DNA from: Acarospora socialis
Taxonomy: Eukaryota; Ascomycota; Lecanoromycetes; Acarosporales; Acarosporaceae
Length of the DNA: 64,000 nt
Assembly (NCBI GenBank): GCA_025617375.2
Contig: JAMYGW020000015.1
Coordinates: 124,001 to 188,000 of the forward strand
Reading direction: 5' to 3'
Each line of letters opens with the position of its first letter. The stretch's first letter is position 1. A model generated the notes under the pieces. The model was given only the letters and a program-made list of their open reading frames with translations. It did not search any database and was not told the origin of the DNA. Below are positions 24,367 to 64,000 of this stretch, in pieces. A program made the position numbers and the translations under genes.

Positions 24367-27300
24367 CTAAGAACCCCAGTAGTATATGGAAATAAACAAA
24401 AAAAGCCACACTATATCAACAAAATGTCAGTAAAGTATTGATGACTCTGTTCCAAGGTGATGGTTATCTGTAGAATGATAAGCCAATACACGTCATAAAC
24501 CAACAGCTATAAAAGCTGTACCTATCATGACGTGCAGCCCATGAAAACCTGTCCCAAAGTAAAAACAAGAACCGTAGGCTCCATCTGAAATAGTAAAAGT
24601 AGAAACTGAATACTCTATACCTTGTAGAGCAGTAAATACAATGGCTAATATAACTGTACAAACAAAACCGTATAAAGCTCCACTTCTATTTCCTTGTATT
24701 AAAGAATGGTGAGCATACGTTACAGTTACCAAATCTCAAAATAATAGCTTTATTTGTTTCTATTATCCCTGTAATTTATATTAATTTAAATTTTTACAAA
24801 CAAATATACAAACTATATTTCATAACTGTAAATTTAATACAAATCCTTGTGTTTCATTATGCACAATGAAAAGAGATTCCGACTGTACATTAAGCAGCAT
24901 TTCAGCTACCCACCGGTGAACCAGTCTGTAGCGACCTTTCATACGGCCGACGGTCTTGACTTATTACATTAATCGTTAACCGTTAACATCAGTATTGCCC
25001 GTAAATTAAAATGTATTAATTTACAAATATTATTTAATAATAATATTTTATTTAATATATAATATTTTTTTATGAAAATTGCATATTACATTAATATAGG
25101 ACTATAAAAAAGATTTAAGATAAATTTACTTTAACCATATTTAATTTATATAAAAAATATGGATGTAAATAAGGTGATATTAATGGTATTAAGATAGGTA
25201 AATTAGATTTAGGTATATAAATATTATATTGATTTAAATAGCCTGCAGAATGTATTGCTAATTTTAGTTTATATTTAGTTTCTAAAATATTTACTAATCT
25301 TTTTACATCAGATAAAGTAAAACAATTAGTGCATAGCTTAATACCTCTATTTTTAATTCATGAACCATCGTCCATTATTCATATAGCTAAAGCTATAGGA
25401 GATAAGTATTGTTCTATTCAACAAGGGATAGATTTTATTCCCTTATTACAAAATCCTTCATAGATTCAATTAAACGAACTATAAGTGAAACTACGAAATC
25501 TACAATAATAAGCTAATTTGTCATTAATTATCCTAGTTTGAATTTGAGGCAAATTTTCTTTGCAATAACCATGCTTTAGTAATTGTTGATGAAGTCACAA
25601 TACATATTCAATATGTTCTCCTTTTTGATAAAAACAAAACCTGGATCCATTACCATATTTTTCCATTGAACCATCACCCAGTAAAGATCCTATTAAAATA
25701 CATAATATTTCATAATTATGTGGACCTGTTCGTTTAGTAGAAGCTACCCTAGGAGAACTAAAAGGTAAAACAGGTAAAAAGGTTATTTTATTATTATTGT
25801 TATTATTATTATTATTATTGTTATTATTATTATTCATTTGTTTCATTATTTTAATCATTATTATTTATATTAATATATATATATTTACATAACTATCCAA
25901 ATTAGTATATAATTCACCAACTGTGTAAGCGGAGAAAGCTAATGCTATTATTAATATTATTAATAAAACCCAAATATAAATAGCACCTATTTTCTTATTA
26001 GAATAAATATGGAATCTAAATAATAGTATTATAATTAAGCTAATTATAATGACTAAAGATATATAATTTGCAACCGCTAAACTAAATAATACTTCTTCTA
26101 TTGATTCATAGGCAGTAGCTACGATATTGTTATTAACAGAATTGTGTAGATTTATAAAACTATCTATGTTAGCAGACATAGCATTAATACCGTAAATAGA
26201 AATTGATATTCCGAATAACACTATTGCAAGAATAAATCAGATCCAAAAAACACTCATTTGTTTATTTAACTTAATTATTTTATTGAAATAATATTCTATT
26301 TTACTGTTAATGTTATTACCTAATAGTTTAGATAAACCTAAATTAATGCTATCTTTTAGATACAATTTATAAACTAATTGTATTATTAATATATATACCA
26401 TACTCAAACAAACGTAATCTATAACCTCAAGTTGAAAAAATAAAGTTTGTAAAGAACTAACTTGTGAATCACCTAAAAATTTATTAATACTATCACTAGT
26501 ATTAGTTGCAGTATATATACCACTAGCTTTAGTAGATGTAATACTTTTATTTACACCACTAATAAATGCTTGACCTACACCTCCAAGTACACTAGCACCA
26601 ACTATTACACCAGCTTTTTGTAAAGGAGGCATAGGGGATTTAGCTATAGCCTTTCCTACTCCTCCAGCTATACCAACCATAGCACCAGTTATTCCCATTT
26701 GAGTTGCTATGCTTTTACCTGCTTCTTTATCATTAACATGAACATGTCCTTGTAGGTTTACATTAGTGTTTACATTAGTATCAATATCATTATTCATATC
26801 ACCAGCACTTAAAATAATATTTATTGATGTTATGTTGTCGTAAATAAATAAAAAGCATAATAAAGGTATAACTGAAAAAGAAAAAATTTGTGTATATTTT
26901 AACACAGTATTTTTAGATAATTTTCAATCGTCTAAATAAAATAACATAAAACTAATTGTTAATATCAAAAACAGTATATATATATAATAATAATTTTTAA
27001 TAATTTTGTAAGAAATAAGTAGAATATTTGATAAAAGTAAATTTAAGCATAATAATAAAATAGGTAAATTAAATAATAAAACTGTTAATAAAAAAAAAAG
27101 CAAATTTATAAAATCTTTTTCATATAAGGCATACACCAGAGGATAACAATATTACTGTATTAAGTAAAGGTAATTCAAAAGGATTAACAGCGTTTATACC
27201 CATTGGAGGTCACTGAGCTCCCAACTCAACAGTAGGAGAGAGTGCACTATGAAAAAATGCTCAAAATATAGCTAGAAAAAATAAAGCCTCTGAAACTATA

Positions 27301-30300
27301 AATAAAGCAACTCCCATATTTAAACCTCTTTGTACGGCCAAAGTGTGATTACCTAAATAAGTCAAGTATACATAATTATATTAAGATTAACTTAATTACA
27401 AACATATAGATTAGATATTATATTAATTCTAAAATTTATTAAAATGATCTCAGTTATAATAAATCCTTTTTTTATTCATGAAATCTTTAATGGTACGTAT
27501 TTTAAAAATCTCTTTTTTTGTTAAACGTTTACCTAAATAATTTATAGATTCACTATAGTTTAAAAAATCCAGATACTTACTTGTCATAAGCGGATATTTA
27601 TTAAAATAATTAGTTACTAAATAATGTTTTTTATCTGATTGAACATAAAAAACTAAAAGTTTAGCTGGTTTTTTGAATAAAGGATTAGTAACTAATCTAA
27701 AATTTAAGTTACATTTAAAGAAATAAGCTAATTTTGTCCTAAACTCTAGAAAAGACTCAGAAGTTATTTTATAAATTTCTCTTTGGTTAATAGAAAAAAC
27801 AGTAATAACACGTCCACGTGTATTTAAATCAGAATCTGTCTAAATTCCACTTAATTTAATGGAAAAATTACCGTCTGCATCTGCATCAGTAAATCAATTC
27901 TAATCATGCATTAGAATTGAAGTCACTATTGTCTAAATGCAATTTTAATAAATTAGTGTTTCGTCATTTATTAAGATTATCAATGGCTCTATATAAAGCT
28001 TCTACTTCTGGTGTACGAAAATAACCATTTATAAGGTTAACTATTTTTATTACTGTTTCTGCATTAGTAATTTGAAATCTACAAACATCTGTTTTTCCTT
28101 TATAAATATTTACAGTTTTAAGTTCAGTTTTTAGTTTTTCAAATATAGCTAATTCTTTTTTATGAAATGTAATTATGATAGCTGGAGATGTTTTTTCTAA
28201 TTTTCCTATTCTTAAGAAAATATAACCATCTCCTTCTATCAGTCCAGCTAAGTATGGACCTAATTGCCTTTCAGTTTGTTTAAAAGTATTGTTTAGATTA
28301 ATATAATATTTATTTTCTGTTTCTATATGTGTCTGTGTCTGCTTCTGTGTATGTTTGTGTGTCATACTAAGAATATCTAGATTATAATTATGTATACAAT
28401 ATATTTCTATATTGATTGGACTATATCTTAACTTAGCTTAGAAATATATTATTCTTTCTAAAATATTAGTTCTTGACATATAGTCTCTGAAGATCCTACT
28501 AAGGTAATTATATACCTGTTGGTTTCCTGCTGATAGACCTATATTATATAGGAGTTTCCAGCAAATAGTCAAGTTTAATGAGGCCACTTATTATTAAAAC
28601 CGATACTGTAAATTAATTAAAAGAAATATATTTAATTTAAATTGCTCAAAATAATGGAAATTGATCAAAGAGATATTACCATACAAATTAATATAGCAAT
28701 TAATATTAAATATACTCATAATATATTTGTTTTATCTCATCACTTAAATATTTTTAGAAATATAATTTGTATATAATCACCTAAAGATAGCTTTTTAACA
28801 AATTCAAACTTTAAATCACGTTTACTAAAATTTTTCATAATTAAAAACATAAAAACTAATACAAGTAAATAGATTATTACTATGTGTAAATAAAAATCTA
28901 ATTGTAATTGCTCTATATCTAGTGAAGATATAAGAGAACCATTTCAATCTCCAACAATAGAATGATCTGAATCTCCAACATTAGAATCTCCTGGTTCTAT
29001 TACAGATTTGGCGGTATAAAGCTCATCAATCTTTTTGTTTCAAGAAGAACAAGTAGTAACACTATCATCAATCTTTTTGTTTGAGGGAGAAGAAGAAGCA
29101 GTAACACTAGAATTTATCTTATCAATTTTTACATTTAAACTACCTTGAGTGTTTGTTTTAGTGGATGATAAATTATTTTGAACCATTTTATAACCAATCA
29201 AAGATGCAGCACCCATACCTAATGTAGCACTTAATTTAGCTTCTATGGGTAAACAAGTAGCTTTAACTACTTTAGCAACAGCTGCCATTACTCCTACATA
29301 TATAGCACCATCACGTACTTGTTCTATTGCAACATCTAAGCCATTAATTTTTATATTTTTTGCTTCTAGATCTAGAACACCTTTAGCTACATTAGGGCTA
29401 GAGTTATCCTTAGCCATACAAATTATATTTTGAGTATAAAATAAATTATTCATATAATATAAATTATATATATCAAATATGTATAAACTAATTATAACAA
29501 AAAAAAATAAAAAAGAAAATTTAACATTTAATAAACAATATCGATTTAGACAAATGTGCAACTTTAGCCTCTGATATAACATCACGAAACCATAAAGACA
29601 TAGAATAAATTAAAGATATAAAGGCTAATAGTAAATAGTTTTCTGCATTGTTAAATCCATGCATTGTTAATACCAAATTATTTTTTTATCTACTGGATTA
29701 ACTCCCATAGCGACAAGTTAGTAGTTTAAGCCCTGCCTTAGTTTAGGAAGAATACGCTAACCAGGCTTCAAAAAAGTGTTAGTCGGCAAACACTTAATTG
29801 TTAAGCTGCCGAACTAAAAACTTTTAAGGTAGATATGCCAACACTTACGTATTGGGTAGGACTATATCTTATTTCTCTAATTTGTAAAAGCCTTGTAAAT
29901 GATTTCAGAAGAAAATAGTTCTTCTACTATTCATTCCTTCTTTTATTTGTCTTACATTGTTTAAATAATTAACATCACCTGGATGAAGATTGTTTGCTTT
30001 TTTAAGCTCTAAGACTTTTAATCAATCTAAGTAATTCAAGTGTTTACTACTAAATAATAAATATTTATTAAAATAGTTTCACACTAATATGTTACTAGCT
30101 AAATTTATAGTTCTCACTCTGTATTGAGGATGATTTGAATCACCTCTTGTAACACCTAGTGTACTACCTAAGAAATTAGCTATTTCAGACATAAAAGCGT
30201 AATTACTTAAACCGTTGTGATATATTTGTCTTTGTACTATTTCAAATCTACATTCAACTACAGGGTAGCTTCCTTTAGTCTTTGAACTAGCAGATCTGAC

Positions 30301-31125
30301 CGTAAAATGGCCATCTCCATCTGTAAATCCCGCTAATCATGGATTAGAGCCCAGAGGTTCAGAACTTAAAGGCAATTTAGGAATAAATGTATTAGAATAT
30401 CCTGATACTTTTATTCAGTCAATTAAATCATGTAATGCTTTAATCTTAGGAGTTCTCATCTTTCCATTTATTAAAGACACAATTAACATGATACTCTCTT
30501 TGCTGTTAAAAGTCAAAACATAAGCATTAGCTCCTTTTCTTTTAGACAAAGAACCATGGCCTAAAGTGCTTTGAATCATTAAAGCTAAAGACATATCACG
30601 AGAATCCAACAAAATTTGCATAGAAGGGTAATATAATCTACCTTTGCTCGATCTTTCAGTTTTAGGTACTATTATCGTACCATCAGCTTCAATTAAACCA
30701 GCTAAGTAATGCGAAAGCATACTAGTGTTTCTATTATAAGGGATATTATTACTTGTTGTTTCGTTTTTGCTAGAAGAGCCAACATAACAAGTAGTGTCCT
30801 TATCTGAATTATCAGCTGATGTTTTTACTGGCAAACAAAGCAATATAGACATAAATACAAAGGCAGCACGAAAGAGAAACTCAAGCGTAGAGTCTCTGAA
30901 GATACCTAAAAAGTCCAAACTTAAAAGGTTTCCTGCTGATAATCCTAGTACTATCATTAGTATTAGGAGTTTCCAGCATATAGCTTGATTTGAAACAGGC
31001 ATATTAAAAAGTTTACCTGTGGTTGTAAGGGCTAGCAGAGAAATGCAAGTGTAAAGAGGTCAAGGAGAAGGAGATACTAAGTGAAAAGGATGAGCTTGAA
31101 AATTACTTCTTGTTAAATTTGTCAT
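24367..31125 (-). CDS. cox3: Cytochrome c oxidase subunit 3, four exons
   Basis: Exons (minus strand): 31125-31015 ([17 protein letters not shown]), 29673-29566 ([18 protein letters not shown] ... WFRDVISEA), 27362-27135 ([15 protein letters not shown] ... VILLSSG) and 24729-24367 ([15 protein letters not shown] ... [12 protein letters not shown] stop). Together they give a normal length of about 270 residues with all conserved helices. Several Trp codons are TGA. Subunit 3 is a core membrane subunit of complex IV. Each of the three introns holds a homing endonuclease gene, and two hold a family B membrane ORF. Boundaries were set by keeping the conserved protein intact and may be off by a codon. 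Confidence 0.93.
24840..25000 (-). other. Group ID intron core, cox3 intron 3
   Basis: The minus strand carries GACCGTCGGCCG, CTACAGACTGGTTCACC, GGGTAGCTGAAATGCTGC and TTAATGTACAGTCGGAATC. The same set occurs in cob at 60180 and 62756 and is the signature of group ID introns in fungal mitochondria. The intron spans 24730 to 27134. Confidence 0.83.
25115..25858 (-). CDS. LAGLIDADG homing endonuclease (type 2), cox3 intron 3
   Basis: A frame of 247 residues in code 4. It begins with a long Asn run encoded by an ATT/AAT-type repeat. Then come [20 protein letters not shown] (first motif), [20 protein letters not shown] and IALAIWIMDDGSWIKNRGI (second motif). The order and spacing fit the LAGLIDADG_2 family. 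It follows the family B ORF and precedes the ribozyme core. Confidence 0.87.
25865..27136 (-). CDS. Accessory Gly-rich membrane protein, family B, copy 2 (cox3 intron 3)
   Basis: About 420 residues, open throughout in code 4. Layout: four or so N-terminal membrane helices, the polar segment [20 protein letters not shown], a Gly-rich hydrophobic block with regularly spaced glycines ([20 protein letters not shown]), the signature [16 protein letters not shown], a Ser/Thr-rich linker, then helices flanking [12 protein letters not shown] and two more helices. Relatives: 61352 (cob intron), 28632 and 42041. The only starts near the 5' end are a GTG at 27136 and internal ATGs, so the start is uncertain; it may be read from the exon. 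Function unknown; no endonuclease motif. Confidence 0.75.
27490..28365 (-). pseudogene. LAGLIDADG homing endonuclease gene, cox3 intron 2, partly decayed
   Basis: First motif [18 protein letters not shown] at about residue 35, followed by [16 protein letters not shown] and [15 protein letters not shown]. The second half contains the degenerate second motif region and the conserved end [19 protein letters not shown] ... [12 protein letters not shown], but in more than one frame. The N-terminus is a repetitive His/Thr/Gln stretch ([16 protein letters not shown]). Confidence 0.8.
28405..28595 (-). other. Group IB intron core, cox3 intron 2
   Basis: GCTGGAAACTCC, ATCAGCAGGAAACC, GATCTTCAGAGACTATATG and AAGATATAGTCC occur in the usual order on the minus strand. 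The same elements appear at 29860 to 30985 (cox3 intron 1), 51720 (nad1) and 59840 (cob). Confidence 0.85.
28632..29585 (-). CDS. Accessory Gly/Ala-rich membrane protein, family B, copy 1 (cox3 intron 2)
   Basis: About 317 codons open in code 4, with an uncertain start (a Met near 29450 is an alternative). Layout: N-terminal helix ([15 protein letters not shown]), a polar part, a Gly/Ala-rich hydrophobic block ([35 protein letters not shown]), a Ser/Lys linker with repeats of SNKKIDDSV and NKKIDELY, then two C-terminal helices around FKWWDKTNILWVYLIL. The order matches the other family B members, but sequence similarity is low. It lies 5' of the ribozyme core and LAGLIDADG gene of the same intron. 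Confidence 0.68.
29869..31014 (-). CDS. LAGLIDADG homing endonuclease fused in frame to cox3 exon 1 (intron 1)
   Basis: The frame continues without a stop from cox3 exon 1 through the intron to a TAA at 29869 that overlaps the ribozyme sequence AAGATATAGTCC (about 380 residues). Motifs: [18 protein letters not shown] and [14 protein letters not shown], with [18 protein letters not shown] between them. The 5' part codes through the group IB core (GAAACTCC, CAGCAGGAAACC) at 30880 to 30985. This is the usual design of an intron-encoded maturase or endonuclease made as a fusion with the upstream exon. Confidence 0.9.
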
Positions 31126-31215
31126 TTTTTTTCTTTTCTTTATTTTTTTTTCTATATTACGTATTATTTATTTTATTTTTTAACTAAAAAAAGAATAAAT
31201 AGTTTATTACATATT
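31126..31215 (-). repeat. cox3 leader repeat, copy at cox3
   Basis: About 80 bases, including (plus strand) CTATATTACGTATTATTTAT and GAATAAATAGTTTATTACAT, are repeated at 32140 to 32232. This copy is directly upstream of the cox3 start; the other is directly upstream of the ORF at 31375 to 32130. Confidence 0.9.
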
Positions 31216-31374
31216 TATGTTTATACTAATCTAAAAGTCTAAATCTAGAACTTAAAAATATTTATTAATAATTTATACTGTTAAAATCTTACCACAGATA
31301 CAAAACATAGATAAAAAAGAAAAAGATCTTTTAATAATTAGATTATCTATTACTTAATCTAATTATTAAATTTA

Positions 31375-32130
31375 TTAATTTAATCCACGTAAACTATCTC
31401 TCAGTCTAAAGTTATTTTTTAACACATCCCAATTATAAGGTTGATTACTATTACTAGTTGTAAACCTTTGATGTAATGCTCTATCATTATGGTATAAATA
31501 ACGATCTAAGAAGTTTAGATCAGATGAGTTTAATACATGTCTAGAAAGATGAGAGGAGTTATCACTTTGAAACGCTAAAGCATTTGCTAAATTATTCGCG
31601 AATGGTTGATTACCACCACCTGGGTTGTACACAGTTCCACTCCCATAAATAACTAAAGGTGTGGTATTTCTACTAGCCGCTTGCTGATTCATAGGACCTC
31701 AATTACTATTAGCCATACCTCCATCGCAACCTGCCCTAGAGAATGTACCAGGACCGGTAGGATTAGCCACTGCTGGTGGATTTGCAGCTCCAGGATTTGC
31801 TGCTGGTGAATTTGCAGATCCAGTATTTGCTGCTGAATTACCTACAGGGTTTCCTACTGGATTACCTGTAGGATTACCTCCAGCACCACTACCAACATTA
31901 GACATGGCCATAGGGACAGACCCTAAATTTTCAAAGAAAACTGAAATTAAAGGTCTGAAGATACAAGCTCCTAGTCCTAGATAAATAAAATCCAAGAAGA
32001 CAGATAATTCTAAATTAAAGTAATAAATTATTAATGTTCTAAGTATAAACATAGCAACCAAAGAAAAGCAAGTAATAACAAAGTAACCAAGAGTGTATTT
32101 AGCTTTAATTACATTAAAAGTTGTTTTCAT
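31375..32130 (-). CDS. Accessory membrane ORF with Asn/Pro/Gly linker, upstream of cox3
   Basis: A 251-residue frame in code 4. Two or three N-terminal hydrophobic segments (FVITCFSLVAMFILRTLIIY; FLDFIYLGLGACIF), then a low-complexity linker of GNPxGN and ANP units (about residues 85 to 140), then a hydrophilic tail (LNSSDLNFLDRYLYHND). The membrane part plus linker resembles the C-terminal extension of cob ([17 protein letters not shown] ... [10 protein letters not shown]). It is flanked by two copies of the cox3 leader. Function unknown. Confidence 0.72.
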
Positions 32131-32139
32131 TTTTATTTT

Positions 32140-32232
32140 ATTTTTTTTTTCTATATTACGTATTATTTATTTTATTTTTTAACTAAAAAAAAAGAATAAA
32201 TAGTTTATTACATATTTATGTTTATACTAATA
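32140..32232 (-). repeat. cox3 leader repeat, copy at accessory ORF
   Basis: Duplicate of 31126 to 31215, placed in front of the accessory ORF. It probably supplies its transcription start or mRNA 5' end. Confidence 0.88.
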
Positions 32233-32676
32233 CACAAGGTTGGTAACAAATGTAAATACCCTAATCACCCGCTATCAAACAAAACACCCTACAATATGTT
32301 TATAGTGGGCCAGAATGATTATGTTTTTTTACAGACAGGCAAACTGATTACTTAAATTCTTTGCAGATTGTTACTCACCTAAAATACAATTTTTAGACTC
32401 TAAACATTTTAGATTAGCTTTTAGAAAATTAGATCTTTTTTTATAAATAGTTATATTTACCTACAGTTATACCCATTATTGAAGTGTTATTAGTTAGTGT
32501 GCCCTTTTGTTAATTGTGGCTTTTGTAACCTTAGCTCAAAGTATGCATTGTAAGATAAATTTTAAAAACTTATCTTTAAGATATCACTCAAAAAAAAAAA
32601 ATCTAATCTCTAACTTAACACAAATAGTAATATTTCTTGCTATTATTAAGACATCTATTTCTTAAATAATAGCTTT

Positions 32677-32748
32677 TAAGGAATAGGTGATTTGAACACC
32701 TAACCCACCGTGTGTAAAACGGTTGCTCTACCCTTGAGCTAATTCCTT
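32677..32748 (-). tRNA. trnV(uac): tRNA-Val (UAC)
   Basis: Acceptor AAGGAAT/ATTCCTT, D arm GCTC-AAGGGTA-GAGC, anticodon stem ACCGT/ACGGT with loop TTTACAC giving UAC, T arm AGGTG-TTCAAAT-CACCT, discriminator A. Confidence 0.95.
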
Positions 32749-33097
32749 TAAAGTAGAAATAACCTGTTTCTACTTTATTAAACTAATATATATATGGTAT
32801 AATAGATTGATATGTATGGCTGTATTTAATTTAGATTAAAAATAGTATTTTTAGTATATCTGTGTGTATAAAAATTAGGAAAATAAACAAATATATAAAA
32901 GATTCATTCGAATTAATAAACACTTTTAAATATTCGTGTATTTAAGATTAATTTTTTTATGATTAGCATTAAATTGGTTTTTATTTTAATCTTATACGGA
33001 GTTTATAGCATTTTTTTTTTTACTTTCCTGCTAATAGTGTCCATATGTTGTATTTGCAAAGTGTCTGCTTGTTAAGGGTCAAATGTGATAGATAAAT

Positions 33098-33170
33098 CGA
33101 GTTAGGTCGGAATCGAACCGGCATATTTTTCTTTGACAGTGAAAATCTTTACCAATTAAGAAACTAACTC
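33098..33170 (-). tRNA. trnD(guc): tRNA-Asp (GUC)
   Basis: Acceptor GAGTTAG/CTAACTC, D arm TCTT-AATTGGTAA-AAGA, loop CTGTCAA giving GUC, T arm GCCGG-TTCGATT-CCGAC (one mismatch). The anticodon stem has one A-A mismatch. It is a better tRNA than the copy at 17772. Confidence 0.88.
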
Positions 33171-33312
33171 TTTAAATTATTAAACTTTAATTGCCATACC
33201 ATCACCATCCGCTCTCACCGTCCGTTTTTTACGATTTTACTTTGTTTTTAATTTATATATAGATATGTTACTTTTCATTTATTTAATAATCTGTGTGTTT
33301 AATTTTTTTGTT

Positions 33313-33410
33313 GGGTCTCGGGTCTCGGGTCTCGGGTCTCGGGTCTCGGGTCTCGGGTCTCGGGTCTCGGGTCTCGGGTCTCGGGTCTCGGGTCTCGGGT
33401 CTCGGGTCTC
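33313..33410. repeat. Tandem repeat, 14 copies of GGGTCTC
   Basis: Ninety-eight bases consist of the exact 7-base unit repeated 14 times. It is strongly GC-rich against an AT-rich background. It lies between trnD and a decayed GIY-YIG gene, with no gene of its own. Confidence 0.98.
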
Positions 33411-34215: not shown

Positions 34216-34219
34216 GTTT

Positions 34220-36418: not shown

Positions 36419-36437
36419 GGTATTAAAAAACTTTTGT

Positions 36438-36600
36438 TTAGATGCCTCACTTTTAATTCTTTTTTAGATCTATAAAAATAAAGATTTTTTTAACTATTGA
36501 TTGAGAATTTAATAGTTAACAAATTAAAAAGCTATAAATTAACTGTAGAACTGTTTATCTTTTTTTTTTATAGATTTTTATAAAAGATAAAGCAAAAGAT
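36438..36600 (-). promoter_or_regulatory. nad6 5' leader, source of three duplicated leaders
   Basis: The segment with (plus strand) GATGCCTCACTTTTAA, TTTTTTAACTATTGATTGAG and AATTAAAAAGCTATAAATTA recurs at 14845-14995, 40448-40615 and 42846-42985, each time directly upstream of an accessory ORF. This suggests it contains a promoter, processing site or translational signal. Confidence 0.7.
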
Positions 36601-36672
36601 AAACGCATGCAAGATTTGAACTTGCAATCTTGTGTCCGTAGCACAATGCTATAACCATTTAGCTAACGCGCT
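36601..36672 (-). tRNA. trnR(acg): tRNA-Arg (ACG), copy 2
   Basis: Same as the gene at 15028 except for one base in the acceptor (AGCGCGT/ATGCGTT, a G-U instead of G-C). Anticodon loop CTACGGA giving ACG. Directly upstream of the nad6 leader, probably the original locus. Confidence 0.92.
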
Positions 36673-36747
36673 TAAAGTTAAGTAAAAAGAAAGCTAAAGT
36701 TTTTATTTTACTGTTTTTACATTTAGTTTTTAAAAATGTTAGATGTA

Positions 36748-36820
36748 TAGCCCTTAAGATGAATCGAACATCCACCGAAATATTAACAGTATTCCGCTCT
36801 ACCATTGAGCTATAAAGGCT
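36748..36820 (-). tRNA. trnN(guu): tRNA-Asn (GUU), copy 2
   Basis: Same fold as the copy at 15174 with one change in the D loop. Anticodon loop CTGTTAA giving GUU. Confidence 0.93.
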
Positions 36821-37575: not shown

Positions 37576-37577
37576 AT

Positions 37578-39038: not shown

Positions 39039-39045
39039 GCTATAA

Positions 39046-42040: not shown

Positions 42041-42831
42041 CTAAAAAAAATATATAAGATTGATCTTGTCTCAATAATTGAATAGTTTTATAAACTTAGG
42101 ATAAATACTGTTACCATATGGTAAATTTTTTATTCAATTAAAACTTAATTTAGAGTTAGCTACTAGCACAGAGATAAAAAACAGTATAAATGTATAAAGT
42201 AAATATATAATTACTGCACGTAAGATTATATTACTCTTTAAAATATTTATAAGATCTTCAGCTGTAAATAAGTCAGGACTATCTCCATCTTCTAATACAG
42301 ATGGTGCAGGATAAGAGGAATTATCTCCTTTATCTGATAATTGATACACTGTTTTTTTATCATTATAATTTAACTTATTCATACTGGAATAAATAGTATG
42401 CATAGCACCTCCAGCTATTCCACCGCCTAATGCAAATCCAGCTTTAGCTCAAGGAGATCCACCTTTAGTTAAACTAGTACCTATTTGCATACCACCCAAA
42501 ATAGTTCCGCCTAAGCCTATATTATTTAATACGCCAGTGGGTACATTAACATTAAGGGATTGAGTTTGTAAATTTACTGTGTTTCCTGTAACAGAAGGAT
42601 TAATATCTTTAGCAGTTTCTAGTAATTTTTTTTTTCTGTTTCTCCATCAATACAATATTGTATGTCAGCACAACCTGTCATAAATATATAAACAATAATA
42701 AACAAACCTATAAAGAGAATAAAGAAAATAAAGCGAGAAAATAAATGAGAAACTCTAAAGGTAGCGGTATATAAGAGGCTGAATAGAATTTTACTAAAAA
42801 ATTTTTCACAATACGATTTTATATATTTCAT
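42041..42831 (-). CDS. Accessory Gly-rich membrane protein, family B, copy 4, frame interrupted
   Basis: An N-terminal piece (70 residues) has a membrane helix (FIFFILFIGLFIIVYIFM). The following part has LNVNVPTGVLNN, a Gly-rich block (IGLGGTILGGMQIGTSLTKG; WAKAGFALGGGIAGGA), a polar linker and a C-terminal helix (IIYLLYTFILFFISVLVA). The order matches family B in cox3 and cob introns. The frames meet at a long A run near 42625, and a poly-T run closes the frame near 42043. It is intergenic and preceded by a nad6 leader copy at 42846. Confidence 0.62.
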
Positions 42832-52548: not shown

Positions 52549-52831
52549 TTGATTTATAAAAAAAAAGGATCTAATTTTCTTATAACTAATATAAAAATCA
52601 CTTAACTCTTTACATTTAAATTAAGAAATTATTAGATTAAAGATAACTATTTTTTTTTTAGACTTTTAAAAGTTTGTAATTAGAGGTTAGTCTCTAAAAG
52701 TTATCTATTAATATTTAATTTAGAGAATTTAGCTCTAATTTTATTGTTTGCCACCATTAATGAATGTGTGGTTGGATGAATGAATGTTTGGATGGATGGC
52801 TGGATGGACAGATAGATGTATGAATGGTGAA

Positions 52832-52902
52832 ATTCTTATCCAAGACTCAAACTTGGATCTAAATATTAGAAGTATCCTGCTCTACCATTGAGCTAATAAG
52901 AA
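52832..52902 (-). tRNA. trnR(ucu): tRNA-Arg (UCU)
   Basis: Acceptor TTCTTAT/ATAAGAA, D arm GCTCAATGGTAGAGC, anticodon loop CTTCTAA giving UCU, T arm CCAAG-TTTGAGT-CTTGG. A degenerate GGAT/GGAC repeat (52765 to 52825, plus strand) lies at its 3' side. Confidence 0.92.
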
Positions 52903-54490: not shown

Positions 54491-54721
<231 letters not shown>

Positions 54722-54973
54722 TTAAATTTTTAAATATAATTTTAGATAGGTAGCCCTTTTACTAGTTTAAAATGTATTTTTTTTAGGTTAGTTTTAGCTA
54801 ATTATCTTTAGTCTTTAGAGATGTTATTTTTCTTTATAAGCTAAAAATACAGATAAAACTATTTACATTTTATTCATAAATACTTATTATATCTTTTTCT
54901 TATTAGCTATCTAATAATATCTAGCTAAAAAGAGTTAAGTCAAGTGTATTTTAGTTAGTTACATGATGACTCT

Positions 54974-55016
54974 AGGGACAGGGACAGGGACAGGGACAGC
55001 CACAGGGACAGGGACA
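54974..55016. repeat. GGGACA hexanucleotide repeat next to trnC
   Basis: Six to seven copies of GGGACA with one imperfect unit (GCCACA) run into the 3' acceptor strand of trnC, whose last bases are themselves GGGACA on the plus strand. The repeat probably grew from the tRNA end. Confidence 0.92.
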
Positions 55017-55081
55017 AGGAGGAATCGAACCCCTTATTTTTGATCTGCAATCAAATTGTAGAGCCATCTACAACATATCCC
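55010..55081 (-). tRNA. trnC(gca): tRNA-Cys (GCA)
   Basis: Acceptor GGGATAT/TTGTCCC, D arm TTGTAGATGGCTCTACAA, anticodon stem TTTGA/TCAAA with loop TTGCAGA giving GCA, T loop TTCGATT. Confidence 0.92.
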
Positions 55082-55243
55082 TTTTTTATTCTGTATCAAT
55101 TATACAAAGAAAAAAAAGCCAGATATTACATCATATATATACACAAGTAATAAATGTAAAAAAACTTTAACCATTGTAGCAAGCTGATATATTTTTTAAA
55201 AACTTATAAATTTTAAGCTAAACTCTTTAGTGTTAGTAAAGGT

Positions 55244-58200
55244 TTATTTAATATTTTTATAATCCGTTAATCATTTTTCAATAAAATCTTTGTTGATTTT
55301 TTCTTTGGACCATTCATGCAAAAGATCTTTATGGGCTTTTTCTACAAGCCATTCCTTTAGACAAGTGTTATAAAACTCTTGTCTCTCTTTTGTTTTAGAT
55401 TCTAAAACCCGAAAAATGGTTTTTTTATCTCAAGTGTCATAAAAAGCCTTCTCTTGTTGATACTGATTTTTAAAAAACTGCTCATGTATTGTATAATGCT
55501 CATGAAATACATTCTGGACACGTTGATAAAAGTCAGCTTTTGTAGCAGAACCTTCTGAAAAGTTTTCTTTTTCAAAAGCTTTAAGAATCATTTTATTTAG
55601 AGAAACATTTGATTTCATTTGCTCTAAATCCTGTAATGCATCTCTACGTACATTTCAGGGATTATTAAAGTCAATAAAAGGTCCTTTCCAATTGTCATTG
55701 GTAGTGAAACCTATATATCTTTTTTGACGCTCTTTAAAAGCCTCTATAGCTTCACCAGTAGGTTCTCTGCCTGCATCTATTGCATCAAAATAATCTTTAA
55801 CCTTATTCAATGAACAAAGACTCTTATTATCACTTTGAATGTATGGTTCAGAAAAATTATTTTCTCAATATCGTTGAGGCTCAGGAAAACCTTGTAACCT
55901 CAAAGCTAGTTCAAGAGGTCCAAGTTGTTTTAGAGGGTAATTACAAGCTAATTTCAGTAATTCCTCTTTTTCAGAAATATAATTATATGGCCCACTAGAA
56001 ACATATTGTTCAGTATTTGCTACTGGCCGATTAGGGTCTTCACCATTGTTACCTACTCCTGGACTTTCTCCAGGATTACTTCCTACTGGGTTACTAGCCG
56101 TAGTATTGCTTAAACCAGCCATGTTATTATCACCAGCTCCATGTGTTAAAGTATTGCTGACAAGAAGTTCACGAATGCCTTCTTTTATAGCAAAACTTAT
56201 ATAAGAAGCTATAACACTAGTAGAACAAAAGTCTCAAAAGACTTTTAAATCTAGTCCTATACTAATAAGATATAATCTGATAAATCAGGCAGTTATTATA
56301 CCTATACTAAGTGAAATAAAACTAATAATAGCAAGCTTATTGTGTTTATATATAGCTCAAAAACGTTTAAAATTAAATCTTATTCCACTTTGTAAAGGTG
56401 AATTTAAAAAGACAAAAGGTTTAGCTGGTCTATAGTTTTGTGTTGCCTCTTTCTCTTTCTCTTCCTCTTCCTTTTCCTCTTCAGATATAGATATTGTGCC
56501 ATATTTATTGCTAGCTAACTCTATTAAACTATTTTCAAATAAACTACCTAGAGGTACTATAATTAAGAAATATGCAAAATATATAACTGTAGAAATTTGT
56601 CCAAATTCTATAAATGGAGATTCCACGTGTTTAGCCCCTAATTGCATTAAAATTAAAAAATTACCTATAAAAATAAAAAAAACTATTTTACTTAAAGGTC
56701 TAAATTGTATACCTCTTGATCTAGATAAATCAGTAAATGGCATAGCTAATAAGATTAGAATTGCAGAAAACATAGCAATAACACCTAATAATTTATTAGG
56801 TATTGATCTTAAAATAGCATAGAAAGGCAGCAGATATCATTCAGGTACTATAGCAGGTGGAGTTTGCATAGGATTTGCCATAACATAATTTTCACTGTCT
56901 ATTAACACATTAGGCATAAAGAAGACAAAAACAGATAAAACTAAGATGAAAAGAAAAATAGTTATAAGATCTTTAAATATATAATAAGGAGCAAAAGGTA
57001 ATCTATCATAATTACCTGAAACCCCTAAAGGATTACTTGAACCAGCACTATCATGAAGTGCTATTAAATGCATTAAAGCTAAAGCAGCTAATACAAAAGG
57101 TAAAACAAAATGTAAGGCGAAAAATCTGTTTAAAGTAGCATTATTAACAGAACAATTGTGTTGGTAACCCCATAATCAGTGTAGTATAAAACTGAAAACT
57201 CTCGTTACACGCAATAAATTTCTTTATTGTTCGGACTATATCATAATCTTACATTAATACTTATCAGGTATATTAAATTTTTTAGTGTACCGTGGTATTG
57301 TACGAAGTTGTTTAAGTCATAATAAATATTGTAATTTTTTATAACCCAAAAGTTTAACTGGAGCTTTTTGTATAAATTTAACAATGTTTTCTACGGATCT
57401 TACATTAGAAACTTTAAACTTAAAGTTGTTTGTTTTATCTTTATAAATACTTGTAGTTAAATATAAATACTTAGACATAGCTAGAATTAGTATATGACCA
57501 TTAGTTTGATAAATATCAAAACTCGCTATTAAAGAAGGGTCAATTTTGGGTTTATAAATACTAAAACAACCTTCAGCTTCAATAAACCCTACTAATCAAG
57601 CAGAGAAATATGGTACACTTAAGATAGACTCTATAGAATTTAGAGGATTTATTGGACGTATATATTCCGGTAAAAGTTCACTATATTTAATACCAGATAA
57701 AAGTACATTTTTAAATCTTTCATAATCATATTGTTTATTTGAAAGAAAAGGATATTTATCAAAAATAGGTAAGATGTAGTTAATAAGGTGAGATTTTTTT
57801 CTAACTCTAAAAAAGACTGTATCAACTCTATCTTCCGATTTTCTAAAAAAAAACAACACCAACCCCTAAAAAATCTTTTATTTTATATATAAGTTGAACA
57901 TCTCTAATAGATACTTCTATACCAAACTCATAGCCTAAGTATTTTCCTTTTTTTTGTTATACTAAATCTACCGTCTGCTTCAATTAAACCCACTAAATAA
58001 GCATAAGTAAGATTTCCTGCGTTTAGTCTCTGAGAAGCTTTGAGAGTAGATATCTCTCTAACCCCTGCTGGTTGCCCCTTTATTGTTATACTTTTTACGG
58101 CTAGATGTACATTAATAGTATAGTCGTATATAACTTTTAAATTTAAGGGTATTCCAGCAATAAGCAGGATTTGCATTACAACATTACTGTTGTAAGGCTC

Positions 58201-61200
58201 TTCTATTAATGTTATAATTAATATACATAAGCCACCTCATAGAAACTCCACTATATCTTGTCCTATTCATGGTATAGCACTCATTAGGTTAGTAATACAT
58301 ACTTTGTGTTAATAATATATTAAGTATTATAAAATCAGGCGGTTGTAGCATAGTTCTATTTATAAAATTTAGGGGAGTAGGCTTTAATTCTTTTTACAGT
58401 TAAAGCGACTATTAAACCTTCTTTATTTTTTACAGGTTTACCATCATTTAAGCGCTGTGTTATAGTATTATTACTCACATATAGAGCTTTAGCACAAGAG
58501 ACTCCATTAGTAAAATAACTGATAGAACCATTAAAAAAAATAGCTTTAATAATATAGGTAGATCTTATATATTTTTTATCCTTTATTATAATAGCCCTAC
58601 CCTCAGAATCTATCTCGATTAAAGCTTTTGATTTAATAACAAGATCCAGTTCTGATTTAGTAGCCTTATCGAGAGTTAAGGGGTTAGAATTAGTTGACAA
58701 TCTATTATTATTCATAGTATCACCTAATTTAATTATTAATTGTTTACCCTTTTCTGTTAGATGTTTACCTTCTAACATTAAAAAAGCTATTGTTCTAAAA
58801 TCGAGGTAATCCTTATATTTTTTAGTTCTAAATTGTAAGCTATCAAAATAAGGTATAAGGATGTTGCATATATAATCAATTTGTGATATTTCTAAAATAG
58901 AGATAGGTTTATTGTTCTCTTTTATTTTTCTATCACAGATATTAATTAGTTTGGTACAACTACCCAATATATAAGAGTACTCGTCTAAATGATTTAGAAG
59001 AAACTCTCGTATGTTTTCTAAAACTACTTTATTAGGCGTTGTGGTAACAAGTGAGACATGGGCAGTCATATCATGTTTATTTAAATAAAATGATCCGTCC
59101 CCTTCCAGTAAACCCAGCAAATAATTATCTGTCATTTTTATGCGATGATCTACAGGTAAATCAAAAATTACTCTTTTATAATTCATACTATCTTTTAATT
59201 TAATAATCTCTGAATATAAATCTTGTTTATTTAATTTATCAGTTTTCTGGTTTAAAAACATAAAAAATGCTTTTTTAAAAGCTAAATAATCTAGATGTTT
59301 TGTTGTGTTTAATGGAAATTGTTCAAACAAAGGAATTAATATTTTTTCAATAGCACTTAATTGAGATATTGTAAATACTAATGTGTCTCTCTCGGTGTTA
59401 AATCTACCACAACCTAAAGTAGATTTTATATATTCTAAAGCATTTCGATCATCTTTATGCAAACTAATTCTAAACACAAACTCAAATCCTACTACTCCCC
59501 CTTGTTTATTTTTACGCACACGACATAAAAAATTAGACTCTGCTTCACAAATACCTACAAATCATTCAATAAATGCAATACTTATTGAAGGTTTAGATAA
59601 TACTTCATGGGAACCCTTGTTTTCCCTATTGACCTCACTAAAAGGTGCAAAATGGGCTACTGCTTTTATTTGAGGAACAGATGAAAACAATTTAAAGGGA
59701 ACAATTAAAGAAGTAATACATTAACCTTTCGGTATACAACCCTGTCCCACGTCCAGAGGTGGGAATCGGAAAATTTTATTCTAGATTATCTTAATATATT
59801 AAAGGTTTCATTAAATTTCTTTAATGTTAGGACTATATCTTTACCCCCCCCTTCTAGTTTTTACTGCTGGTCAGCGAAGGAGGATATATCACGTCTAGTC
59901 TCTGAAGATCCTACTAAGACTGCAGAAGCTGCCTGTTGGTTTCCTGCTGATTGCTCTAAACTAAGTTTCCTTACTTAAACTATACAATTAGAATAAATTA
60001 GTTATTAGAGGTTTCCAGCATATAGTGATATTTTTCAACAGCTATTACTTAACTGTTGCACCTCATAGTGACATTTGCCCATACGGTAAAACATACAAAC
60101 CTACTCTATAATATATAAAAAGCTAGAATAACTTTAATTTCGTGTATTCTATTAATAAACCAACAAACGAACGTTTGTATTATTAAAGGTCCCGACTGTA
60201 CATTAAGCAGCATTTCAGCTACCCATTAGTGACCCAGCCTGTCGCGATTATCTAAATAACCGACGGTCTCAATTTTTTAATCTTTGACCGTTTTCACTAA
60301 CATTGCCAAACAAATAAAATTTTTATCTCTTCAATAATCCTGTCGGACTATTACACTTTATTTTAAAGATTAATTTAATCTTTACTTTAATAATTATTAT
60401 TAAAACTATTTTTTTATAGAAATTGCATAGAAATTTAAACTAGTGTGACTATAACATAAATTATCTTTAAACATTTTAATTTTTATAATTAACAATAAAC
60501 CGTGTTTTTAATATTTTCTTTTCTGTTTTTAAAGCTCTATTAATAGTTATAGGACTACAATTAATATCTTTAGCAGCTTCTATTATACTAGGATATTCCC
60601 CAAAAACAGTATAATTTAAATTATATAATATCACAAATTTAGATCTTTTCTTCATATTTAACAAACACTCTTCTGAATAATTAACTTTTTTTATCTTTTT
60701 TATCTTTTTTATCTTTTTTATCTTTTTTATCTAGATAAAAAAAAAGATAAAAAAAAAAGAAAGCCCTTTCTCTCATTTTTCCTATAGTTTCTGAAGATAA
60801 TTTCTTACTTCTGTTTGAATTACCCATAAACTTGCGACGTTGTAAACTAAAATTAGACTTCATTTTTATAAAGTTAATTCAGTGTGTTTGTACGCAAAAC
60901 TTGTACCAGCCTCAGTTAATATATTATAGTTAGGCAATAAAGATTTTAAATAAAAATCTTCCAGATCTAATAATTTTTTATTATTTTCTTTATTCACTAT
61001 CTCGGGAAATAACTCTAGAACTAAAAATGCAAAGTTATTTAATTTATATTTTCTTACTGCGAGTTTTACTATTTTATTTCCACTAAAATATAATAAATGA
61101 TTAGAAAATCTGGCGAAGAATTTATTTGTAGAAGCAGATCCTACATAATAATCTCCAGTAATTTTATTAAATATAAGATATACACCACTAAGATTACTAG

Positions 61201-64000
61201 TGTCTTTTCGTATTAAACTTTGCGTACTTTCTAAGTGCAAATTTTCATAAAGGTATACAGGCTTTAATTTATTATCTGTTAAAAATCTCGCTAATAATTC
61301 ATTCTTGGTAATTGTAGTTGTAATTGTTCTTGTCATTTTCATTGTTTTTATTTATTTCTTAAAAAAAATGTACAATTTTACATAATTATTTATGTGAGTG
61401 TACAAATCCCCATAAGTATAAACAGCTAAAGCTAAAGTGACTATTAATATTAATAAGGTTAATCAAATATAACTATTTTTTATATTGCTATTAAAATGAA
61501 ACTTTAGCATTACTTGTAATATCAAGAAAATTAAAGCAATTATAGATATATAGTGAGTCATTTGCAAGTTTAGTAATATATCTTGTATTGAATTATTGGA
61601 CATATGTGTAGGACATATGTCATTAAGAATAGTAGGATTAAATCTAGTTTCTATATTAATGTAACTATCTAAATTAACTAATATGTCATAAATAACATAT
61701 GTGTTAATACCTAGCCCAAACATTATTGTTACAGAACCAAATCAAATTCATATAACACTCATTTGTTTGTTTAACTTAATTATTTTATTAATGTAGAATT
61801 CTATTTTAATACTTGTTCTATTACCTAATAACTTGGATAAACTTAAATTAATATTATCTCTAAAATATAATTTAAAAACTAGCTGTATTATTAATAAGTA
61901 TAGTACACCTAAACAAACAGAACTCATCATTTCCCCGTTAAACAATAATTCTTGTAGAGGACTAAGATGATTATCATCTATAAGTTTATTTACGTGTGAA
62001 TCCGCACTGGTACTTGAAATAGAAGAAGCTGTAAGATTAGGGTTATTTACATAAATATTTTTTCTATTCATAGTACTTATTGCTGAATGTCCTAAACCAG
62101 CAGCTAATCCACTACCTACTATAAAGCCAACTTTTTGTAAAGGAGGCATACCACTTTTGGCTACACTTTTTCCTACAACAGTACTTACGCCAACTATGGT
62201 ACCACCTAAGCCTCATTGACTTCCAATTGTAGCTAATCCTTGGCCTATAGCTTTACTTGCTTCTTTATCTATAGACACATGTCCATGTGCGTGTAAATTT
62301 ACGTTATTTTCATTATCTTTTACACAACTTAATATATCTATAGATAAAGTATGATTATAAGCAAGTATAAATACTATAAAGGGTAGACTAATGAAAGAAA
62401 AGATTTCAATATATCTAATTAAATTTATATTGGATAATCTTAAATTATCTAAATAAAATAGAACTAAGCTAAATGTAAATATGTTTGTATAAATATTCAT
62501 AAAAATATTATTATTAATGGTGTTGTTAAAAAATAAAGAAATATCTGATCAAGAAATGTTTAAAAATAATTCATGTCATTTTGGGCTATAAACATAACCC
62601 AGGAATGCTGTCAAAGTTCCGGCTAACTATAACCTAAATTTATCTGTATAGCGCCCCTGTATTTTATCAATATATTAGTCCCCGATATTTAGCAGATATC
62701 TTTATAATATATATCATTTAAAACCTTGTGTAACCCTTTTATTTTAGTTAGGAACTTCCGACTGTACATTAAGTAGCATTTCAGCCACCCACTAGTGACC
62801 CAGTCTGTAGCGATTATATAATTAACCGACGGTCTGTAAACAGATAATGAATGTTTAACCGTTTTCACTAGTGTAGCCAGGTAACATACCCAATACCCAT
62901 GTCAGGGCATTCTACTTTAGTTTTTAATTAATGCTAATGCAAAAAATTATAAAACAGTATCTTTTTAATTATATATTACATATACTCTAAATTAAAGTAA
63001 GACTTTGATTTGGGGGAGTCAAGTTAGAGATATCCTCTAAATTTATATTTCATTTCGTCTATAATATATGGTTTAACTATTAAAACTAAATCAGCCGTAG
63101 ATTGTTTTCAGATACTTATTTTTCATTGAGCAATATGTCCTGCTTTCACAACACTAGTTTTAAGGCCATATTTTTCTTTAATGATTTTACTTAAGTAAAC
63201 ACAATCCTCATATGTAAAACTGTTGGTTGCAAGAGATATTCCTGGATTCTTTTGTCTGGATCCATCTTGCATAATTCAATGAGCTAAACCTATTGGTGTT
63301 ATAAATTCTCCTATTCACTCTGGTATCTTTTTTACCATACTACCATTAACTTCATGATAAAATGAGTCATATACTCAGAATAGACTAGTAAAACTATATG
63401 TTGTTAATCTATAGTTATAGCGAGTTGATGTGGGATCTAATCGTTTATCATCCATTGATTCAGATTTAACAACCAATTTAGGTGTAACATTAGAACAGTA
63501 ACCTAATTCATGCAAAAGAATATTAAGATGATGAATATAAGCAGAATTTCTTACACCCTGTTCTATACTAAACCGTACAATATCCATCTGTTGACCTTTT
63601 ATCTTGTTACACCATAAATCACCCAACATACCATATATTATTATTGATAATACATCAATATTATGAGGACCAATCCTGCGGATTGCTCTCGTTCTACCTT
63701 TATTAAAAGGTAAGGTAGGAGAAATGATGTTATTATTATTATAATCTTTAACTTGAGATATCACCAATCAATTTGGCCACATAATTTTTTTGTATAGCCA
63801 TCATTAAAATAAAGATCACTGTACCAATAGTTCAAACTAATGTTCTAGGAGCTTTGTATGATCCGTAATATAAACCTCTACCTATATGTAAGTATATTAT
63901 AAAGAAGAAAGCTGAAGCTGTATTTGCATGTAAATAACGTAATAATCATCCATTATTTACATCACGCATAATCAAATAGTGTTAATTATCTACGATGTTC
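55244..64000 (-). CDS. cob: Cytochrome b, five exons in window, with long C-terminal extension (5' end beyond window)
   Basis: Exons (approximate): 64000-63796 ([20 protein letters not shown] ... TVIFILMMA), 62611-62594 (TAFLGY, 18 bases), 60095-60051 ([14 protein letters not shown]), 58296-58231 ([20 protein letters not shown]) and 57151-55244 ([53 protein letters not shown]). These carry heme ligands ([17 protein letters not shown]) and the PEWY quinol site. The frame does not stop after the normal end (near 56510): about 420 further residues follow, with [12 protein letters not shown], a membrane segment ([20 protein letters not shown]), a low-complexity linker ([14 protein letters not shown]) and a charged helical tail. 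Intact reading in code 4 argues that the fusion is real. Confidence 0.92.
57230..58230 (-). pseudogene. LAGLIDADG homing endonuclease gene, cob intron 4, frame broken
   Basis: Continues in frame from the exon (WGG) with [18 protein letters not shown] (first motif); after a break, [17 protein letters not shown] and [18 protein letters not shown] (second motif), ending near 57230. The 5' part overlaps group I core sequence (TATTGCTGGAATACCC, CTTCTCAGAGACTAAAC) near 58020 to 58180. Confidence 0.8.
58356..59715 (-). CDS. LAGLIDADG homing endonuclease, cob intron 3
   Basis: Open in code 4 over about 450 codons. First motif [18 protein letters not shown], then [17 protein letters not shown], second motif [19 protein letters not shown], and a long C-terminal region with [20 protein letters not shown] and a terminal domain ([20 protein letters not shown]) like NUMOD1. 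No ATG precedes the first motif; the first ATG-type start is at 59519, so the start codon is unclear or the protein is made as an exon fusion. Confidence 0.85.
59835..60035 (-). other. Group IB intron core, cob intron 3
   Basis: GCTGGAAACCTC, CAGCAGGAAACCAACAGG, GATCTTCAGAGACTAGACG and AAGATATAGTCC in order. The intron separates GATV from ITNL of cytochrome b. Confidence 0.86.
60180..60300 (-). other. Group ID intron core, cob intron 2
   Basis: GAGACCGTCGG, CGACAGGCTGGGTCACTAAT, GGGTAGCTGAAATGCTGC and TTAATGTACAGTCGGGACC on the minus strand, as in cox3 intron 3. Confidence 0.83.
60476..61342 (-). pseudogene. GIY-YIG homing endonuclease gene, cob intron 2, disrupted by a repeat
   Basis: Open from the ATG at 61342: [20 protein letters not shown] (nuclease core), [17 protein letters not shown] and [20 protein letters not shown]. 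After residue 158 the frame breaks. The downstream part has [12 protein letters not shown], then a run of five KKD-type units encoded by a TTTTTTATC repeat (60688 to 60733), and a DNA-binding tail ([17 protein letters not shown]) in another frame. Confidence 0.75.
61352..62593 (-). CDS. Accessory Gly-rich membrane protein, family B, copy 3 (cob intron 2)
   Basis: About 413 codons open in code 4, in frame with the 18-base cob exon; first ATG at 62500. N-terminal helices ([15 protein letters not shown]), [20 protein letters not shown], a Gly-rich block ([20 protein letters not shown]), [20 protein letters not shown], a Ser/Asn linker, [32 protein letters not shown] and C-terminal helices. Clearly homologous along its length to the ORF at 25865. 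It sits at the 5' end of a group ID intron and is followed by an endonuclease gene, as in cox3 intron 3. Confidence 0.78.
62750..62900 (-). other. Group ID intron core, cob intron 1
   Basis: CAGACCGTCGG, CTACAGACTGGGTCACTAG, GGGTGGCTGAAATGCTAC and TTAATGTACAGTCGGAAG in order on the minus strand. Confidence 0.83.
63024..63767 (-). CDS. LAGLIDADG homing endonuclease (type 2), cob intron 1
   Basis: A frame of about 247 residues in code 4. [20 protein letters not shown] (first motif), [40 protein letters not shown] (second motif) and [20 protein letters not shown]. It is a relative of the enzyme in cox3 intron 3. The start codon is uncertain (no ATG near the intron start). Confidence 0.87.

Follow-up and report, generated by a model that had tools for sequence, protein, structure and literature searches.

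Fungal mitochondrial introns can carry genes other than those for endonucleases; rps3 and N-acetyltransferases are known examples, and the fusion of intron ORFs to exons by 'core creep' is described as well (PMC8393795). Membrane-protein ORFs form a second known element of fungal mtDNA. Nearly all of 20 intergenic ORFs of Heterobasidion have transmembrane regions (PMC10234125), ncORFs of Agaricomycetes co-occur with plasmid genes (PMC4201751), and transmembrane ncORFs also occur in the rust Austropuccinia, where transcription of one has been demonstrated (PMC7951889). For the membrane ncORFs of Agaricomycete mtDNA, a plasmid origin is the source usually offered. Non-endonuclease intron passengers and membrane ORFs were thus both known in fungal mtDNA, and what is new here is the nature of one family of membrane-protein frames, which we call family B (ORFs P1 to P4) and for which a matching intron without the ORF was found.

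Like the intron-borne rps3 and N-acetyltransferase genes (PMC8393795), family B consists of non-endonuclease genes in organellar introns. It differs from them in being a predicted membrane protein that matched no family and in occurring in two genes, beside different endonuclease types. The rps3 and N-acetyltransferase genes belong to known non-membrane protein families. Membrane helices are shared with the ncORFs and uORFs of Heterobasidion, Lentinula and Austropuccinia, some of which are present or absent between strains or species (PMC10234125, PMC9744193 and PMC7951889). In this comparison, made by description only, the ncORFs and uORFs covered are intergenic whereas family B is mainly intronic. 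As in 'core creep', the family B frame of cob runs on from the upstream exon, as the GIY-YIG frame does in the related contig L065, but the fused frame stops after the membrane protein and the endonuclease is a separate ORF. A search of open-licence PMC text, by titles and the starts of abstracts, found no paper on glycine-rich membrane ORFs in introns. Similar frames appear to be listed as 'hypothetical protein' in basidiomycete mitochondria; if those frames are kin, family B as such is already on record and the novelty is confined to the cassette reading.

The DNA analysed was a stretch of 64,000 nt (the window), which was read with translation table 4 and whose placed genes are on the minus strand. 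It is part of a fungal mitochondrial genome, with rns, rnl, and nad, atp, cox2, cox3 and cob exons. Exons were placed mostly by our own frame reading, those of cox2, cox3 and cob also by Pfam. tRNAs with the anticodons tca (17380) and cca (17477) were found, as expected where TGA encodes Trp, and an adjacent pair of tRNA-Arg(acg) and tRNA-Asn(gtt) is present in two copies (15027-15246 and 36600-36820). A 71-nt stretch (13945-14015), 97% identical to sequence near the atp6 3' end, is a truncated atp6 duplication. The cox2 frame (22994-24463) matches the TM domain, but of the 120 positions of the copper-binding domain it covers only 1-44, after which other sequence follows; a simple pattern for a CuA-type motif found none in window ORFs of at least 40 aa. 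At 55244-57223, cob ends in an in-frame extension of about 400 residues, which includes a hydrophobic segment and is charged at its C-terminus, and Pfam reported cytochrome b only.

Three introns could be placed in cox3 and four in the visible part of cob. Family B ORFs were found in three of these seven delimited introns, always 5' of an endonuclease (Table 1). The sequence-only reading had already put three of its four ORFs in this position, which is borne out with a corrected distribution: two are in cox3 (introns 2 and 3) and one in cob (intron 2). Cox3 intron 1 has a LAGLIDADG_1 ORF whose frame opens with exon 1, cob intron 1 a LAGLIDADG_2 ORF and no passenger, and cob introns 3 and 4 LAGLIDADG_1 ORFs, again with no passenger. 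The endonuclease ORF of cox3 intron 3 is apparently full length and lies 3' of P1 in the same frame, with its first ATG 6 nt past the P1 stop. The GIY-YIG ORF of cob intron 2 likewise shares the frame of P2 and has its first ATG 9 nt past the P2 stop; it closes before a C-terminal part that is present in L065 and of which traces remain downstream. The LAGLIDADG_1 ORF 3' of P3 is interrupted, its second half being in another frame.

We use the label 'group I' for these introns provisionally, from shared core-like blocks, boundary bases and endonuclease types. Cox3 intron 3 has a T at the exon end and a G at the intron end, as in group I introns, and between P3 and the LAGLIDADG_1 ORF cox3 intron 2 has what we take to be group I core-like sequence. 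Rfam gave no group I match in these introns, even at E<=5. Core sequence is shared by the 3' parts of three introns: cob intron 1 is 91% identical to cox3 intron 3 over 58 nt and 83% identical to cob intron 2 over 113 nt. This common 3' core marks cob intron 1 as an intron of the same kind that, within one genome, has no passenger.

Table 1. Coordinates of the family B frames, their host introns and neighbouring endonuclease ORFs, the candidate cassettes and the direct repeat
Feature	Position in window	Strand	Method or remark
P1, family B open frame, cox3 intron 3	25865..27151 (stop to stop)	-	frame reading, BLASTP
P2, family B open frame, cob intron 2	61352..62626	-	frame reading, BLASTP
P3, divergent family B member, cox3 intron 2, one membrane module	28632..29609	-	BLASTP, phmmer
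P4, intergenic family B member, downstream of atp6	42041..42754	-	BLASTP, phmmer
Cox3 intron 3	24730..27134, 2405 nt	-	exon reading and boundary sequence
Cob intron 2	60094..62596, 2503 nt	-	boundary sequence; in relatives ~1663 nt (L065), ~1290 nt (L067)
LAGLIDADG_2 homing endonuclease ORF, cox3 intron 3	25115..25864	-	Pfam E 3.1e-45, profile 3-167/168
GIY-YIG ORF, cob intron 2	60866..61351	-	Pfam E 1.6e-5
LAGLIDADG_1 ORF, cox3 intron 2, 3' of P3	27868..28437	-	Pfam E 3.8e-10
Cassette, cox3 intron 3 (DNA shared with cob intron 2)	25811..27053; 3' edge 25841 to ~25802	-	blastn, windows, scorings
Cassette, cob intron 2	61298..62570; 3' edge 61337 to ~61294	-	same methods; absent in L065, L067
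ATGAATTATT, 5' copy of 10-nt direct repeat, spanning the 5' cassette edge in cob	62565..62574	-	
ATGAATTATT, 3' copy, where L065 homology resumes	61293..61302	-	

P1 and P2 were found to be 43% identical (164 of 382 residues, E 2e-90, in a single pairwise comparison). The homology first noticed between these two ORFs therefore stands, over about 380 residues rather than 400, and all of the motifs then quoted were found in both, including VNL..H.HV..DKEA.K, in which P1 is one residue shorter before DKEA. P3 and P4 had been named as weaker kin, and this also held (BLASTP E 2e-9 for P3-P4, 5e-6 for P1-P3 and 2e-5 for P2-P3), with the qualification that the glycine block is weak in P3 and that P4 is truncated C-terminally. 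Single BLASTP comparisons gave no link of P4 to P1 (E 2.1) or P2 (E 0.21). Against the 507 window ORFs of at least 40 aa, phmmer gave 4e-8 for P2-P4, 1.2e-9 for P4-P3, 0.0038 for P1-P3 and 0.098 for P1-P4, and blastp with P4 as query gave 3.8e-8 for P2 and 0.005 for P1. The open frame of P4 closes inside the last membrane module, which resumes in another frame. P3 is out of frame with cox3 exon 2. The P2 frame is in phase with the 15-nt cob exon (TAFLG), and its first 18-20 codons or so are the end of intron 1, this exon and native intron 2, not passenger.

A leader of about 140-180 nt, 79-87% identical between copies, is repeated at 42991-42820, 40591-40424, 14999-14822 and 36565-36428, lying 5' of, or running into, P4, ORF 39860, ORF 14276 and nad6. 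The window also holds a second membrane-protein family, marked by NSPLDHxASLTxKL and a glycine-rich stretch and with no demonstrated kinship to family B, which is intact at 4962-5732 and 20840-21643 and broken at 7421-8116 and 9991-10696. Several pairs of its copies match in DNA from a few nt 5' of the first ATG, and three of the four lie directly 5' of endonuclease ORFs at 3.9-10 kb (GIY-YIG and LAGLIDADG_2, assigned by Pfam, the middle GIY-YIG by reading). Two unassigned ORFs that follow a second-family copy (19295-20827) resemble, as we judge them, N-terminal remnants of a plasmid DNA polymerase, with no profile hit.

Nothing pointed to a known conserved intron protein, a possibility raised in the sequence-only reading: P1-P4 matched no family in Pfam at E<=1, in PHROGs or in NCBIfam, the four glycine blocks had no Pfam match at E<=10, and the P1/P2 pair had none among PDB sequences at E<=5. 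The P2 block gave 11 PDB matches (E 0.57 to 1.8), all to unrelated proteins. LAGLIDADG, GIY-YIG, HNH or His-Cys domains (Pfam E<=1, PHROGs, NCBIfam) and Rps3 or GNAT homology (Pfam E<=1) were not detected in P1-P4, and P1, P2 and P3 are non-endonuclease ORFs between exons of cox3 and cob. Viral contigs were scanned with five queries (P2, the alignment of P1 and P2, the second family, the endonuclease of the cox3 intron, and cox3 exons) without yielding relatives, and two genome-contig scans found none either; such scans need short exact peptides and are insensitive. Queries with nad4 and with cob exons did reach fungal mtDNA. A motif scan returned 26 stretches, and profile and single-sequence searches of these and of contig L001 gave a best E of 0.055. 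Family B was not found in the contigs of relatives (G001, 43.9 kb; L065, L067, L069 and L070). Weak matches of P2 to L065 1330-2481 (E 0.0031) and L067 1405-1833 (E 0.032) are to exon-fused cob frames, which have the exon and the beginning of the intron in common with the P2 frame; they were taken as chance, as were those of P4 to L065 (E 0.025) and P1 to L029 (E 0.042). A common ancestry of families B and D found no support, with hhalign probabilities of 4.5% and 1.3%; the P2 and D1 blocks alone beat 992 of 1000 shuffles, and when the remaining block pairs of B and D were compared, 48 to 714 of 1000 reached the score.

The family B protein appears to be helical and to span the membrane several times, combining a glycine-rich hairpin with a two-helix module that is duplicated. 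Its layout is an N-terminal helical pair, then the glycine-rich block with MPPLQK at the turn, then modules. Towards the C-terminus, P1 and P2 each contain a two-helix membrane module twice in tandem; alignment of the two repeats scores 104 in P1 and 68 in P2, values that none of 500 plain and none of 500 local shuffles attained. P3 has one module. The N-terminal helices were rejected as an extra copy of the module (the score was attained in 318 and 156 of 500 shuffles). The glycine block is common to P1, P2 and P4 (0 to 2 of 1000 shuffles reach the score); that of P3 is weak, with 0 of 1000 shuffles against P2 and 8 to 10 of 1000 against P1, and the comparison of P3 with P4 was not above chance (617 to 635 of 1000). 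Outside the block, several spans were predicted from hydropathy. An AlphaFold model of P2 built from 4 sequences, which is only a hint at a mean pLDDT of 40.9 and a pTM of 0.28, is all helix and folds the block as a helical hairpin. The earlier description as a membrane protein agrees with hydropathy and with this all-helix model of very low confidence. P1 has one GxxxGxxxG (G156/160/164), P2 has GxxxG pairs only (G135/139, G142/146, G167/171 and G173/177), P4 has five GxxxG and the P3 block none; oligomers of the glycine-zipper type would be a guess.

The block might instead be an ATP synthase c-type hairpin that forms rings or rivals the c-ring, but we find this hardly tenable. The P2 block did resemble three c-subunit sequences entered by hand (0, 0 and 1 of 1000 shuffles reach the score), while for the P1, P3 and P4 blocks 73 to 812 of 1000 shuffles reached the scores, no acidic residue occurs in the second half of either the P1 or the P2 block, and there was no c-subunit match in Pfam or PDB. 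We reject the subunit-c idea; for blocks of the second family, too, 8 and 17 of 1000 shuffles reached the score in a comparison with the c subunit of E. coli.

Relatives of the cob locus were found in IMG/VR with cob exons as query, in contigs filed as viral that we judged to be fungal mtDNA; the IMG/VR contigs L001, L065, L067 and L068 all look like fungal mitochondrial DNA. The query returned 38 loci, from which L065, L067 and L068 were examined (L068 is from the same record as the nad4 match), the others being mostly continuous cob of 70-72% identity. L065 and L067, with a cob exon 1 that is 89% and 91% identical to that of the window, have an intron at the same site, with TAFLG before and YVLPYGQMS after. 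The intron starts alike (HSPKW in the relatives, YSPKW in the window), and its GIY-YIG protein is an orthologue of that in the window (L065, 69% over 144 aa; L067, 63% over 131 aa). The family B ORF was absent from this intron in two of two readable relatives; the contig of a third ends about 120 nt from the exon and lies outside this count. A matching cob intron without the ORF in two contigs suggests that family B behaves like an inserted passenger. The sequence-only reading had spoken of a passenger family and suggested looking at the same intron positions in related species, and for cob both these orthologous introns and the agreeing 5' edges given below support it. The cassette may instead have been lost in the relatives, although gain is favoured. 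Cox3 exon 4 had no match in the L065 and L067 records, and the viral-contig scan gave no cox3 locus.

In L065 the GIY-YIG frame of the cob intron is fused to the exon. L067 has an exon-fused cob-intron frame (1405-2568) that contains no cassette but does contain an in-frame stop, immediately ahead of a GIY-YIG frame that is open apart from this; a layout of stop followed by endonuclease is therefore not peculiar to introns with the cassette.

That family B is a maturase-like helper of splicing or homing, coevolved with these introns, is very improbable. Its presence in three of the seven delimited cox3 and cob introns, each time 5' of the endonuclease, and the past selection on the protein would speak for such a role, but the other four introns, including cob intron 1 with the shared 3' core, are without it, the orthologous introns in two relatives manage without it, and the protein has no LAGLIDADG, GIY-YIG or other known domain.

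The 5' edge of the DNA shared by the two introns (27053/62570) was agreed on by blastn, by window-by-window identity and by three of three alignment scorings. Inside this edge 10-15 of 20 positions are identical, compared with 4-7 of 20 in the four windows upstream and a random mean of 6.3, and at 62570 identity drops from 13/20 to 4/20. The match to L065 ends at 62567 and resumes at 61301, and that to L067 ends at 62577 and resumes at 61266; the 5' edges from the cox3-cob and window-L065 comparisons were within 3 nt of each other. The 3' edge is soft and lies in AT-rich repeats: blastn placed it at 61337, two scorings at 61318 and 61294, a permissive scoring found no end before 61204, the end of the compared stretch, and in windows set in register by the stop codons the match fades near 61298. 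Where an end was found, it lies 7 to 36 nt from the L065 resumption, depending on the method. At the place of the cassette the relatives have a variable linker of about 170 nt that is missing from the window, so the event may be a replacement rather than a clean insertion. The P1 cassette is out of frame with cox3 exon 3 and, being out of phase, needs its own start.

In cob, copies of the 10-nt direct repeat ATGAATTATT lie where the match to L065 ends and resumes, 1272 nt apart, which is a multiple of 3. The repeat is AT-rich; by chance, a 10-nt repeat was found between 20-nt windows in 13 of 20000 Markov pairs and in 24 of 19388 real window pairs, and with 60-nt windows 23 of 1000 resamples reached it. 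It may be a target duplication or a trace of microhomology, and is not proof. No such direct repeat was found at the cox3 cassette edges, and a search for terminal inverted repeats around P1 and P2 gave only AT-rich inverted matches. Among the marks of a mobile cassette, a common 5' edge and an ORF-free site are present, the 3' edge is soft, and the repeat is seen at cob only.

Codon patterns demonstrate, at the level of sequence, past selection on the family B protein. P1 and P2 have 176 identical residues of 382, compared with a mean of 134 and a maximum of 151 in 500 random placements of the nucleotide differences, and the pair has 0 stops, compared with a mean of 14.6 and a minimum of 5. 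For P3-P4, 70 residues are identical, the random placements giving a mean of 45 and a maximum of 58. The 24 codons 5' of the likely start have no third-position excess (10, 9 and 8 differences), suggesting that coding probably starts close to the ATG of P2 codon 43 (62500), the likely start of P2. P1 likely starts near 26983, at an ATA aligned with the P2 ATG, or at 26947, the first ATG, 12 codons on; translation table 4 lists ATA as an initiator. The endonuclease is shortened in cob intron 2 and interrupted in cox3 intron 2, whereas the P2 and P3 frames of these introns have remained open; P1 and the endonuclease of cox3 intron 3 are both open. Open P2 and P3 beside damaged endonucleases hint, in three introns only, at selection on the passenger.

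The DNA of P1 and P2 is 65.5% identical over 864 nt, and the cob-intron endonuclease DNA of the window is 74.4% identical to that of L065 over 546 nt and 68.9% to that of L067 over 511 nt. P1 and P2 are thus more diverged than the endonucleases of the window and its relatives, which probably argues against recent copying within the genome. Separate acquisitions from a pool, or an old duplication with losses, would fit better, by a margin that is small against L067.

We propose that family B genes are passengers and that P1 and P2 each sit in a cassette of about 1.2-1.3 kb between the 5' splice site and the homing gene of a group I intron, and we give this reading a probability of roughly 60%. 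The two copies lie in introns of different genes beside unrelated endonuclease types. The cassette would be made up of a short leader, the membrane-protein ORF, a stop and probably a short tail with the next ATG, and would occupy an intron part tolerant of ORFs. It may have been moved by recombination from a pool, in mtDNA or a mitochondrial plasmid, and then have spread by hitchhiking on intron homing, which we propose because the intron copies itself into intron-less alleles. Translation would begin at the cassette's own start, as is needed in cox3; in cob the frame also runs on from the exon. The endonuclease, 6-9 nt downstream, could be made by termination-reinitiation. The protein would be an inner-membrane one, a packed glycine-rich helical hairpin with one or two two-helix modules, most likely for the upkeep of the source mobile element rather than for respiration or splicing. 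P4 is decayed, as neutral cargo would be, and this counts against the cassette explanation. No free or plasmid copy of the cassette was found.

The ORFs may instead be remnants of integrated mitochondrial linear plasmids whose intron location is accidental, an explanation that we hold to be a serious one, at somewhat less than an even chance. Within the window, a different glycine-containing family stands beside unassigned ORFs that look to us like plasmid polymerase (no profile hit). Published accounts tie non-conserved, mostly transmembrane ORFs to plasmid genes (PMC4201751, PMC10234125), and L. edodes has a 350-aa ORF with five TM segments beside pol1 that is missing from four mtDNAs (PMC9744193). 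However, by reading frames no plasmid-like gene (dpo/rpo) was seen beside P1, P2 or P3, three of the four family B copies are 5' of an endonuclease inside an intron, and P2 had no match in PLSDB or INPHARED, neither of which is a fungal plasmid collection.

The passenger cassette could be an instance of something wider. Mobile membrane-protein cassettes might specialise in homing introns, inserting just 5' of the endonuclease, with a built-in stop-and-restart that maintains its expression, in-frame loss through flanking direct repeats and super-Mendelian spread, and family B and the second family would be two such; we regard this extension as doubtful.

Unassigned membrane ORFs abound in fungal mitogenomes, and family B gives an edge, an ORF-free orthologous site and a plausible vehicle. 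With a defined edge, an ORF-free site and intron homing as vehicle, the movement and persistence of such ORFs become testable by strain comparison. If the cassettes carry a selected function, homing introns would deliver more than endonucleases, rps3 and a few enzymes.
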